Source of the DNA: Dehalococcoidia bacterium
Lineage (GTDB): Bacteria > Chloroflexota > Dehalococcoidia > CAUJGQ01
Length of the DNA: 64,000 nucleotides
Direction: 5' to 3'
NCBI GenBank assembly: GCA_035310145.1
Contig: DATGEL010000061.1
Span: 1-64,000, forward strand
Under the pieces are notes generated by a model that worked only from the letters and a program-made list of their open reading frames with translations, was not told the origin of the DNA and ran no database searches. Position 1 is the stretch's first letter, and each line of letters starts with the position of its first letter. Positions 48,045 to 51,559 of this stretch are shown in pieces. The position numbers were made by a program, and so were the translations under genes.

Positions 48045-48204
48045 GCCGCCGTAAGCGGCCAACGAGCGATGAGTGCGGCTGGGCGTTTCGCTTAATCTCG
48101 ATGCATCCCATCCCACGCCACGGGTGAGGCCGATAGGTCCAACGGCCAGAGCGCAGTGAGTAAGTCGCACGGCGATTCTTTTGGTCCGTCACGCGAGATG
48201 GAGC

Positions 48205-49038
48205 GTGAGCAAGGTGAGTGTGGATCGTGAGAATATTGCAGCCGCAGATGCAGCGGTCTTCCACAACCCGGACGTTGTGGCAGCCTACCGATATCGACCG
48301 CCGTACCCCGAGGAGGTATTCGATCTCCTCACCAATCTGATCACGGTGGTGCCGCATCGGGTTCTCGATGTCGGCTGTGGATCTGGGGAAATAGCACGCT
48401 ACCTCGTCCGGCGGGTCGAGCACGTCGATGCTGTGGATTTCTCGTCAGCCATGATTGAGACGGGGAAGCAGCTTCCTGGAGGGCACGATCCACGGCTCCG
48501 GTGGCTCTGTGGAGCTATCGAAGATGCACCCCTTGATCCGCCCTATGCGCTCATTACGGCCGGCGCCAGCCTTCACTGGATGGCGTGGCCCGTCGTCTTC
48601 CCGCGTCTCCAGGCCGCTCTTGCGTGCGGCGGTTACCTCGTCTTCATTGAGCAGCGGATCACCCCGGACGTGTGGTCGGCGCTTGGCGATATCATCCCGC
48701 GCTACCGCGTTGATACGTATCGGGCGCCAGCGCGACCGATGATCGAGGAATTGCAGCAGCGCGGCTTTTTCCAGGCTGTCGGCGAACGGGTCACCGAGAA
48801 GGTTCCCTTTGCTCAGTCGATTGATGCCTATATTGCGTCGTATCATTCCCGTGTTGGCTTCGCCCGTGAGCGGCTGGGCAAGGAGCGAGCGGCGGCTTTC
48901 GACCAGGAGGCACGCCGGTCACTGATCGAGTCCTATCCCAACGGCTCGATAACCCTCCAAGTTGCTGCGCAGATCGTCTGGGGGATCCCAGTGCGGACCC
49001 AGCATCAGTCGTTTGCACTGGAGCACCCAAGTTCGTAA
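48205..49038 (+). CDS. SAM-dependent methyltransferase, accessory
   Basis: The 277-residue enzyme has AAYRYRPPYPEEVFDLL, VPHRVLDVGCGSGEIARYL, VDAVDFSSAMIETGKQL, LITAGASLHWMAWPVVFPRLQAALACGGYLVFI, as in a class I methyltransferase family. GTG 48205 has GGAG upstream; GTG 48214 or 48220 are alternatives. The gene has visibly lower GC and different codon use than gltB next to it, which suggests recent acquisition. It is followed by toxin-antitoxin genes read from the opposite strand. Substrate unknown. Confidence 0.8.
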   Translation: MSKVSVDRENIAAADAAVFHNPDVVAAYRYRPPYPEEVFDLLTNLITVVPHRVLDVGCGSGEIARYLVRRVEHVDAVDFSSAMIETGKQLPGGHDPRLRWLCGAIEDAPLDPPYALITAGASLHWMAWPVVFPRLQAALACGGYLVFIEQRITPDVWSALGDIIPRYRVDTYRAPARPMIEELQQRGFFQAVGERVTEKVPFAQSIDAYIASYHSRVGFARERLGKERAAAFDQEARRSLIESYPNGSITLQVAAQIVWGIPVRTQHQSFALEHPSS

Positions 49039-49040
49039 CA

Positions 49041-49272
49041 GGCTCCAGCGCCGTCGTGCACGGGCGTATGCCGTATCGTGCGGGCCGTTGCTGACGAAGA
49101 CCACGACGTCTGCTTCGATGGTGTACACCAGCCGGTAGGCGACACCTTTTGACGCGCAGATCGTAGGCGCGGACGTGGGCGAGGTCGCCCGTCTTCGGCC
49201 TGCCCGCGGCGTACGGAACATTCAGGATCGCGGGAATGTGCTCGGTGGCGATGGCGTGCAACAGGGGAACGT
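49041..49272 (-). pseudogene. Frameshifted RelE/ParE-type toxin
   Basis: Reading leftward, one frame gives ATEHIPAILNVPYAAGRPKTGDLAHVRAYDLRVK and the next gives GVAYRLVYTIEADVVVFVSNGPHDTAYARARRR. Together they make a RelE-like toxin, but a one-base expansion in an A-run near 49146-49149 splits the frame. No strong start codon is visible upstream and no stop is found until far beyond, inside the methyltransferase gene. No neighbouring antitoxin of the matching type is seen. Confidence 0.65.
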
Positions 49273-49287
49273 CGTGGCGGTTGAGCG

Positions 49288-49746
49288 CTACGGCGTGAGC
49301 GGATAGCTGCTGATGTCCCGGACCCACGGCGCTCGGCCGCCGAGCGCCGTGAGCAGGCGCTTGTCCGCCGTCCACAGCTCGGCGCCGAATAGCTGCGCGA
49401 GCACGACGTAGAGCGCGTCGTAGATCGCCCCAAGGTGGTGGAGCGCCGCGAAGTCGAGCGCTCGCTCGTAGAGGGCTGGCGGATCGAGCGTCTCGATCGG
49501 GTAGCGGAGCAACTGGCTCAGCGCGTTGTCCACTCCCACACGATCGAGCCGCTTCGCCTGGTCGGCGGTTCTGAGACGCTGGTAGATCCCGTTGGCGGCC
49601 TCGCCGCGCATGTGGGGCGGAGCGAACATCCCGCGTCCGTCTCGAATGCAATCATCGACCAAAGCGCGTGCGTTGTTTGTAGATTGCTCGATGACTACGA
49701 GCTTGATCGCAACGCTGGCATCAATGACCACCGGTGGTCGATTCAT
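49288..49746 (-). CDS. PIN-domain toxin VapC (module 1)
   Basis: The 152-residue protein has the PIN acidic residues in VVIDASVAIKLVV, EAANGIYQRL, IYDALYVVLA and LWTADKRLLTAL. VapC proteins are RNases inhibited by a cognate antitoxin. It overlaps the XRE-type antitoxin gene by four bases (ATGA), which sets both ends. Clearly a paralogue of the toxin at 50260-50718. Family firm; target RNA unknown. Confidence 0.9.
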   Translation of the reverse strand: MNRPPVVIDASVAIKLVVIEQSTNNARALVDDCIRDGRGMFAPPHMRGEAANGIYQRLRTADQAKRLDRVGVDNALSQLLRYPIETLDPPALYERALDFAALHHLGAIYDALYVVLAQLFGAELWTADKRLLTALGGRAPWVRDISSYPLTP

Positions 49747-50168
49747 AGCAGCCGCGAGCGCTCGTCGCGCGCGGCATTAATGAGCGGCCAGGATTCATCG
49801 AACGGCACGCCGCCTCGCGCGGCCAGTTGCTCCTCCAGTGATTGGCGCGACTCTTCTAACAGCGCCAGCGCCCGCTCGCGTTCTTCGTCGGTCAGCGGCC
49901 TGATCTGCGCCCGCAATGCAGCGATCTGCTCAGCCTCCGCGCTGTTACGACCCGCGCTGCCGTTGCGGTCCAACTCGAACAGGTCGCCGGGCTCACAGCC
50001 GAGCGCGTCGCAGAGCCGGGCCAGTGTCTCGAACTGGATGCCGTGTACCGCGCCGCGTTCCAGCGAAGAAACGGTGTCGGGCCGTATCCCGGCGGCGGCG
50101 GCGACCTGGCGCTGCGACAGGCGCCGGCTGGCGCGGAGTTCGGGAAGACGCAAACGGATGCGGCTCAT
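49743..50168 (-). CDS. XRE-type antitoxin, partner of VapC module 1
   Basis: The 141-residue protein has an XRE helix-turn-helix (LRASRRLSQRQVAAAAGIRPDTVSSLERG, then LCDALGCEPGDLF) and a C-terminal segment (LTDEERERALALLEESRQSLE, GVPFDESWPLINAARDERSRLL) shared with the antitoxin of module 2. The shared segment is the probable toxin-binding part. A 14-base palindrome lies 26-39 bases upstream and is its likely operator. Confidence 0.88.
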   Translation of the reverse strand: MSRIRLRLPELRASRRLSQRQVAAAAGIRPDTVSSLERGAVHGIQFETLARLCDALGCEPGDLFELDRNGSAGRNSAEAEQIAALRAQIRPLTDEERERALALLEESRQSLEEQLAARGGVPFDESWPLINAARDERSRLL

Positions 50169-50193
50169 GTGACACGCTCCGTTCCATTAATAG

Positions 50194-50207
50194 CACGGTA
50201 TACCGTG
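50194..50207. promoter_or_regulatory. Perfect palindromic operator
   Basis: CACGGTATACCGTG is a perfect 14-base palindrome upstream of the XRE antitoxin gene and contains TATACC on the minus strand, overlapping a possible -10. Typical placement for autoregulation by the antitoxin. Confidence 0.6.
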
Positions 50208-50259
50208 GCAGATGCAGGATACATTGAGCCGGCTGCACGCGCTATGTCGCGCGTGACCA

Positions 50260-50718
50260 TCAAGCGAGAGGATAGCTGGCAATGTCCCGCACCCACGGCG
50301 CGGCGCTGTTGAGTGCGGTGAGCAGGCGCTGGTCCGCCGTCCACAACTCGGCGCCGAGCATCTGCGCGAGCACGACGTAGATCGCGTCGTAGACGCTCGG
50401 CAGGCGGTGGGCCGTGGCGAAATCGAGGGCATGCCCATAGATGCCAAACGGCGCCAGTACTTCGAGCGGTTGGTCGAGAAGATCCACGATAGCGCCGGCG
50501 GCCTCGGCCAACGGGATCGCCATGATTGGATCGGTTGTACGGAGTCGCTGATAGATGGCATTGGTTGCCTCGGGAAGCATCGATGGCGGCGCAGTGATTG
50601 GACAATCTTCTCGCAGGCTGTCGATCAGGAGAGCGATCGCCTGCTGACTGTGCTCTTCTTCGAGCACCCACTTTACGGCGACGCTGGCATCGACCACGAT
50701 TGGCGCGATTCCTACCAA
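50260..50718 (-). CDS. PIN-domain toxin VapC (module 2)
   Basis: The 152-residue protein is a paralogue of the toxin at 49288-49746: IVVDASVAVKWVL, EATNAIYQRLRTTDP, VYDAIYVVLAQMLGAELWTADQRLLTALNSAAPWVRDIASYPL against the same regions there. All four acidic PIN residues are present. It overlaps its antitoxin gene by seven bases. Activity inferred. Confidence 0.9.
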   Translation of the reverse strand: MVGIAPIVVDASVAVKWVLEEEHSQQAIALLIDSLREDCPITAPPSMLPEATNAIYQRLRTTDPIMAIPLAEAAGAIVDLLDQPLEVLAPFGIYGHALDFATAHRLPSVYDAIYVVLAQMLGAELWTADQRLLTALNSAAPWVRDIASYPLA

Positions 50719-51104
50719 TGTCGCGCGGGATCCTCTCTGGCCGCGCGAATGATCGGCCAGGATTCGCCAAGCGGCGCGCCGCGCTCAGCACGCATGCGCG
50801 CCATGCGTTGTCGGGAGCGCTCGAGCGCGGCCAGCCCGCGCCGCACCTCCTCATCCGACAGGCGTCGAGGCCGCGGTATCTCCCCGCCAGCTCCGGTACG
50901 GGTGGTTCCAGCCGGGGTGGCTGCCGTCACCGGAAGCACGAGGTTCGCAAGATCCTCCCGACGCAGGCGCAGCGCCCGCGGGCCGACGTGATACGCCCGC
51001 AGCCGGCCCTGCTTCAGCCAGCGGTGAATCGTTACCTGGCTGACTCGGAGCAGTTGCGCCGCCTCTTTCACCGTGATCAGATCGAGATCCTGTTCGACGG
51101 CCAT
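50712..51104 (-). CDS. Excisionase-type (HTH_17) antitoxin of module 2
   Basis: The 130-residue protein has an excisionase-like helix-turn-helix (DLITVKEAAQLLRVSQVTIHRWLKQGRLRAYHVGPRALRLRREDLANLV), an Ala/Thr/Gly linker, then LSDEEVRRGLAALERSRQRM and GAPLGESWPIIRAAREDPARHW, which match the end of the XRE antitoxin of module 1. The ATG at 51104 is chosen because it begins the domain. Just upstream are GCGTTATGA and GCGTATGA direct repeats. Confidence 0.85.
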   Translation of the reverse strand: MAVEQDLDLITVKEAAQLLRVSQVTIHRWLKQGRLRAYHVGPRALRLRREDLANLVLPVTAATPAGTTRTGAGGEIPRPRRLSDEEVRRGLAALERSRQRMARMRAERGAPLGESWPIIRAAREDPARHW

Positions 51105-51151
51105 GGCGTCCCTCGTGCGGTTAGCGCCGTACCATTGATGCTCATACGCTA

Positions 51152-51559
51152 TCATAACGCATCTTCGGCCGGCCCGGCGCCGATCACCCTGCCCGCGGCG
51201 TCGGTGCGCAGCGGGCCGGTGGTCATATCGAGCAGCACCAGTTGTGTGCCCCAGGGATCCTCGACCACCACGCAGCGGCCGATGGCGATTGCGAACGGCC
51301 CGGCGACGATTCTGCCGCCCGCTGCAACGAAGCGCGCGGCCGCAGCCTCGGCGGAATCGACCAGCCAGTCGATCTCCGGGCCGGGCCGCTCGGACTGCAA
51401 CACCAGCTCCTCACTACCTTCCGGCAGGCGCAGACCGGCCGCGGTCGCGCTGCGCCAGTTGAGCTGGTGGCCGAGCTTGTCGCGGTAGAAGGCCAGCCCC
51501 GCTTCGAGGTCGGGCACGGCGATCTGGATGCTGTCGATCCTGCGGAACAGCGGCTCCAT
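51152..51559 (-). CDS. VOC-family (glyoxalase-like) protein
   Basis: The 135-residue protein has the vicinal oxygen chelate pattern: IDSIQIAVPDLEAGLAFYRDKLGHQLNWR, SERPGPEIDWLVDSAEAAAARFVAAGGRIVAGP, IAIGRCVVVEDPWGTQLVLLD. Metal-binding residues are not fully evident, so it may be an enzyme or a binding protein. It begins 14 bases after the glutamine synthetase stop, so the two are cotranscribed. Family firm; function unknown. Confidence 0.87.
   Translation of the reverse strand: MEPLFRRIDSIQIAVPDLEAGLAFYRDKLGHQLNWRSATAAGLRLPEGSEELVLQSERPGPEIDWLVDSAEAAAARFVAAGGRIVAGPFAIAIGRCVVVEDPWGTQLVLLDMTTGPLRTDAAGRVIGAGPAEDAL

Follow-up and report, generated by a model that had tools for sequence, protein, structure and literature searches.

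A toxin-antitoxin operon of a Dehalococcoidia bacterium in which a VapB-type tail and a VapC toxin probably replaced the back of an XRE-RelE module

Results

Module 1, one of two neighbouring toxin-antitoxin modules in a 64,000-nucleotide stretch of DNA from a Dehalococcoidia bacterium (contig DATGEL010000061.1 of assembly GCA_035310145.1; this whole stretch is referred to as the window), is very probably a chimeric operon, as judged from its sequence: a cassette made up of a VapB-type antitoxin tail and a VapC toxin would have taken the place of the rear part of an XRE-RelE operon, with the head of the antitoxin and its operator retained. A mosaic of two module types, the seams between them, a retained palindrome predicted to be the operator, and the remnant of the displaced RelE toxin can all be read from the DNA of this one locus.

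Two tandem modules with a common antitoxin tail

The four genes lie on the minus strand and are transcribed in the order AT2, VapC2, AT1, VapC1, i.e. as two tandem two-gene modules:

49288-49746, minus strand: VapC1, PIN-domain toxin; its start overlaps the AT1 stop
49743-50168, minus strand: AT1 antitoxin gene
50260-50718, minus strand: VapC2, PIN-domain toxin; TTG start, overlapping the AT2 stop
50712-51104, minus strand: AT2 antitoxin gene, with an HTH_17/excisionase head (residues 9-53) and a VapB-type tail (residues 80-130)

Within AT1, three parts can be told apart:

49962..50168, minus strand: head, residues 1-69, an XRE (Cro/C1) domain of the XRE-RelE antitoxin family (Pfam HTH_26, E 5.5e-16)
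49902..49961, minus strand: linker, residues 70-89, not covered by the head matches and preceding the point at which conservation of the tail family sets in
49746..49901, minus strand: tail, residues 90-141, VapB-type (RPLTDEE...ESWPLINAARDE), 52% identical to the AT2 tail

Both modules have the VapBC gene order, with a small antitoxin gene upstream of an overlapping toxin gene, and both antitoxins consist of a head and a C-terminal tail that is predicted to bind the toxin. A first-pass annotation had placed two VapBC modules with paralogous toxins here, and our analysis agrees with it on the coordinates and on the paralogy: 79 of 146 residues are identical between VapC1 and VapC2 (54%, 154 bits), and Pfam PIN is above cut-off in both (E 8.7e-7 and 1.2e-5, respectively). 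The PIN acid quartet D9, E49, D110 and D128 is kept by both toxins in the alignment. The VapC1 model has a pLDDT of 95.7, and its best PDB match is 2fe1 (PAE0151), followed by PAE2754 and a number of entries for VapBC and FitAB; hits of the VapC profile to designed armadillo proteins in the PDB were disregarded as composition matches. In the draft genome, which comprises 148 contigs, a third VapBC module of the same family, with an excisionase head, lies on another contig (G000:C86, locus L003, 1103-1965).

The same annotation had proposed that the two antitoxins share their C-terminal part under different DNA-binding heads, and this is borne out on both counts. The tails of AT1 and AT2 are identical at 26 of 50 positions (52%, 44 bits, E 2e-11). 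Measured against background, the AT1 tail scored 69.5 bits with a profile trained only on excisionase-headed tails of other genomes, with none from its own genome, while the best of 2000 shuffles scored 10.5 bits, so the similarity of the tails is not due to chance. The heads belong to HTH_26/HTH_3 (XRE) in AT1 and to HTH_17/'excise' in AT2 (Pfam HTH_17, E 3.7e-12; NCBIfam 'excise', E 4.4e-13). The architecture of AT2 is common to the third module of the genome and to nearly all relatives; elsewhere in the phylum, too, this tail is carried on HTH_17 heads, with related PIN toxins following. Overall, of 400 genomes sampled from the phylum, only 12 have the VapB-type tail, and nothing meaningful in the PDB matched the tail profile.

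The tail and its toxin were also found under an AbrB/MazE-type head (G274:C30, locus L099, 1001-1875). This tail scored 64.8 bits with the excisionase-headed tail profile, with shuffles reaching at most 10.6 bits, and the AbrB/MazE-type head represents a second head change, independent of that in AT1. Tail-like matches also occurred with RHH or Phd heads (L110, L080, L087), but these were weak and we did not take them as swaps. Likewise, a correlation of tail and toxin distances was dropped as proof that tail and toxin travel together: it was weak (r 0.19-0.23, p 0.07-0.04), and in the excisionase-headed modules the heads correlate with the toxins at least as well as the tails do.

The head of AT1 is that of an XRE-RelE antitoxin

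For comparison, only five intact XRE-RelE modules were found, in genomes of other families of the same phylum. Over residues 1-70 only, AT1 is 69% identical to the XRE-RelE antitoxin of G041, 62% to that of G008, 70% to that of G181 and 68% to that of G086, while the XRE-RelE antitoxin of G235 is a more distant match; the nearest head is that of G181 (74% over 62 columns). Outside the RelE-partner family, the next nearest XRE domain, found in the class set, is 46% identical to the AT1 head. All five donors carry another tail (LGGPDEDEI...GPSF in most) and have a RelE/ParE-like toxin gene directly after the antitoxin gene. In AT1 this RelE-binding tail is absent and the VapB-type tail stands in its place, and the tails of the RelE antitoxins did not match the excisionase-headed tail profile. 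All head matches stop at residue 69-70, and none of the tail matches begins before residue 74; neither parent family accounts for residues 70-89, and no protein in the searched genomes matched both halves of AT1. The structural model of AT1 is in keeping with a joint at this position, with helices at residues 8-63, a linker at residues 65-75 with pLDDT under 50, and then the helices of the tail. The nearest solved structure to the head is HigA2 of M. tuberculosis (7ewc). A tree of XRE heads was set aside as evidence, being too short to resolve the branching, and the argument rests instead on identity, operator and remnant.

Of the five genomes that have an intact XRE-RelE module, four (G008, G041, G181, G235) carry the VapB-type tail as well, and the two kinds of system may share mobile surroundings. 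Separately, in two genomes (G022:C46, locus L139, and G174:C89, locus L147) a RelE toxin and the LGGPDED antitoxin tail stand behind a different head that Pfam does not recognise; this second head type suggests that the RelE family, too, undergoes head swapping.

The upstream regions of the two modules differ

Two motifs distinguish the DNA in front of the two antitoxin genes:

50194..50207, minus strand: predicted XRE operator CACGGTATACCGTG, a 14-nt palindrome 39 nt upstream of AT1
51150..51156, minus strand: TATGATA upstream of AT2, common to close excisionase-headed relatives

G181 has the identical 14-nt palindrome at -38 of the XRE antitoxin gene of its XRE-RelE module. Within the window, the site upstream of AT1 is the sole copy of CACGGTATACCGTG even when up to 2 mismatches are allowed, with 0.06 expected. 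Its core, CACKRTATA, is also found in G041 and G008, both times at -39, and in G086, at -72; the regions upstream of AT2 and of 14 excisionase-headed modules lack it. TATGAT, for its part, occurs upstream of AT2 and of five of its six close excisionase-headed relatives and is absent upstream of AT1. It may be an operator of the excisionase head or the -10 box of a promoter; because it resembles the latter, we take it as a hint only and not as an excisionase operator.

The proposal in the first-pass annotation that different heads separate the promoter control of the modules thus stands as far as the upstream motifs are concerned, but AT1 follows vapC2 on the same strand at a distance of just 91 nt, with no clear sigma-70-like promoter or terminator found between the two genes, so read-through from module 2 is possible. 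Separate control of modules 1 and 2 is accordingly a possibility. An inverted repeat with 7-nt arms, CACGCGCGACATAGCGCGTG, is present between vapC2 and AT1 at 50225-50244, with no T run.

A RelE/ParE-like remnant lies directly behind vapC1

Two pieces of a RelE/ParE-like toxin gene follow vapC1:

49148..49285, minus strand: first piece, residues 18-63, start lost (tblastn, 67-74% identity)
49048..49149, minus strand: second piece, residues 63-96, in another frame (71-76% identity)

The remnant starts 2 nt past the VapC1 stop codon. In tblastn searches with the intact RelE toxins of G041 and G008, the two pieces gave joint E values of 3e-24 and 8e-26, and a profile search of the whole genome returned the first piece with E 2.4e-17 and the second with E 5e-12, with no other match to this RelE family in the genome. 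Since it lacks a start and is frameshifted, the remnant is a pseudogene; intact copies of this toxin occur in other genomes. Its differences from them lie mainly at third codon positions, as between intact genes (e.g. 28/45 for the first piece against G008), indicating that most of the divergence is older than the break and that the gene was broken late.

The mosaic is likewise apparent at the DNA level. Compared with reference modules, the segments for the AT1 head and the RelE remnant match G181, at 74% and 69% identity, and those for the tail and for vapC match modules of the VapBC type. The head from the RelE-partner family, its operator and the remnant behind VapC1 together argue that the back of an XRE-RelE operon gave way to a cassette of tail and toxin. 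The first reading of this locus had described a swap of heads above a common tail and toxin. One tail-toxin unit under two heads does describe the modules, and this core idea gains strength from the donor family of the odd head, its operator and its displaced toxin. With the remnant, which that reading missed, the direction is, however, better taken as the reverse, the cassette moving under a resident XRE-RelE head and operator.

Two other accounts of the junction fare poorly against these data. It could be supposed that the modules are ordinary VapBC paralogues that diverged, the XRE domain of AT1 coming from a generic regulator and the RelE-like DNA being a coincidental remnant of an independent module; XRE domains are indeed common, remnants of toxin-antitoxin systems cluster in such regions, and XRE-PIN pairs are already known (PMC2701414). 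This is very unlikely, given that the head belongs to the RelE-partner family in particular, with the next best XRE at 46%, that AT1 has the predicted operator of that same family, and that the remnant is the partner toxin of the family, in the expected place and on the expected strand. Still harder to credit is an artefact of assembly or binning. Although a draft in 148 contigs leaves room for misjoins, AT1 runs in frame across the seam and its stop overlaps the vapC1 start, and the 69-74% identity to a single module type, seen in both the DNA upstream of AT1 and the remnant, is too low for a k-mer misjoin.

The pseudogene, together with the failure to find a sigma-70-like promoter upstream of AT1, could also be taken to mean that AT1-VapC1 is decaying and non-functional, module 2 alone being at work. 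We regard this as improbable: AT1 and VapC1 are both full-length, the PIN acid quartet is intact, and AT1 keeps its ribosome-binding region as well as the predicted operator.

The 3' ends of the toxin genes are unusually alike

VapC1 and VapC2 come out as sisters in the toxin tree (support 97/94). The antitoxins of the surrounding group are excisionase-headed except for AT1 and the AbrB case, which makes the XRE head the exception. The paralogy of the toxins nevertheless needs refinement, since their similarity is uneven: codons 5-90 have 43% protein and 51% DNA identity, and codons 91-150, which are far closer, 70% protein and 78% DNA identity. The closer tract is as follows:

49297..49476, minus strand: vapC1 3' tract, codons 91-150, apparently homogenised with vapC2 50266-50445, up to the last codons of the genes

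Third positions differ in 14 of 60 codons in this tract and in 58 of 86 in codons 5-90 (Fisher p 1.4e-7). Among the control pairs listed, third-position differences in the 3' part are all 0.47-0.60, and VapC1-VapC2 has the lowest synonymous difference in the 3' part among 171 pairs. In the N-terminal part, VapC1 is no nearer to VapC2 (42%) than to VapC3 (44%), and a tree of this part gives the VapC1-VapC2 pair a support of just 85/73. The likeness of the 3' ends is best read as gene conversion between the tandem copies, going by these substitution patterns, and the sister position of the two toxins may in part reflect such conversion.

Discussion

The most likely course of events would begin with an XRE-RelE operon consisting of the operator, the XRE head, a RelE-binding tail and the RelE toxin. 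This operon would have lost the antitoxin gene past about codon 70, along with roughly the first 17 codons of relE, and would have received in their place a VapB-type tail and VapC from an excisionase-headed VapBC module such as the neighbouring one. The 3' end of vapC1 would have been homogenised with vapC2 by gene conversion, either later or in the same event. In the resulting module, AT1 is expected to repress through the predicted XRE operator and to inhibit the VapC1 ribonuclease through its tail, so that the autoregulation of VapC1-AT1 would now run off the old RelE control site; read-through transcription from module 2 may add to the expression.

No genome was seen to hold the intact predecessor at this site, and we infer the replacement from its parts. 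The flanking genes (48181-49038 and 51152-51559) offered no route to an unoccupied site, having no match in G001, G008, G041 or G004. Among plasmids, the RelE protein had no match and AT1 matched only generic XRE heads under 45%, and among viral contigs there was no relative of RelE and a single XRE head, 39% identical to that of AT1.

The replacement may also have taken two steps, a whole excisionase-headed VapBC module being inserted between the XRE antitoxin gene and relE, and an in-frame deletion later removing the RelE-binding tail together with the excisionase head. This route leads to the same final gene order, tandem VapBC modules do exist at the locus, and residues 70-89 of AT1 could be its junction sequence; there is, on the other hand, no trace of an excisionase head between the XRE head and the tail. 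We give it somewhat less than an even chance. A more general reading of the replacement is that tail and toxin form a recombining cassette which repeatedly takes over the heads and operators of other toxin-antitoxin systems and leaves the evicted toxin behind as a fossil, the present locus, G274 and G022/G174 being separate products. We consider this generalisation rather doubtful.

If module 1 arose by replacement, it provides a testable example of a toxin that switches its regulator and keeps its antidote, the tail and the toxin moving jointly and the promoter side staying in place. Gene conversion between tandem toxins would, in addition, keep the toxins alike as their regulators diverge.

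With VapBC and FitAB systems, the modules described here share the fold of the PIN toxin, the acid quartet, and an antitoxin tail that ends in an Arg-rich helix. They differ in their heads, those of characterised VapB and FitA antitoxins being AbrB, RHH or Phd-like, and the present tail has no sequence match in the PDB. Pairs of the MerR-PIN, XRE-PIN and XRE-RelE types were catalogued in 2009 (Makarova et al., PMC2701414). Module 2 and its relatives resemble the MerR-PIN modules, in which a truncated MerR/excisionase-like HTH antitoxin accompanies a PIN toxin; in AT2, HTH_17 is above and MerR below the Pfam cut-off, and a PIN toxin is present. In the MerR-PIN modules, however, a small N-terminal domain is the likely PIN-binding part (PMC2701414), whereas the HTH of AT2 begins at residue 9 and the additional conserved part, shared with AT1, is the C-terminal tail. 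Module 1 departs from the MerR-PIN type in its XRE head. Its head, predicted operator and downstream RelE/ParE-like sequence are of the XRE-RelE (HigBA/RelBE-like) type (Makarova et al., 2009), from which it differs in having no RelE-binding tail and, as RelE toxin, only a frameshifted remnant without a start.

Composite and partner-swapping toxin-antitoxin systems are established (PMC1626090; PMC7354431). As far as the accessible text of the respective reports goes, the composite mazE-doc system TasA-TasB (PMC1626090) and the NetFlax antitoxins (PMC10440598) are similar to the present case in that antitoxins recombine their heads and toxin partners, and the NetFlax report regards it as plausible that neutralising tails came to their DNA-binding domains through fusion or exchange events (PMC10440598). 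In the literature we searched, which covered few subscription journals, there was no earlier case of a chimeric antitoxin together with a remnant. The modularity of antitoxins is thus known, and what is new and unusual is an event preserved along with its donor family, operator and displaced toxin. Swapping of heads and partners is usually inferred from the co-occurrence of toxins and antitoxins, as it is from the distribution of pairs in the accessible accounts of TasAB and NetFlax, whereas here the seams, the predicted donor operator and the displaced toxin are all kept at a single locus.
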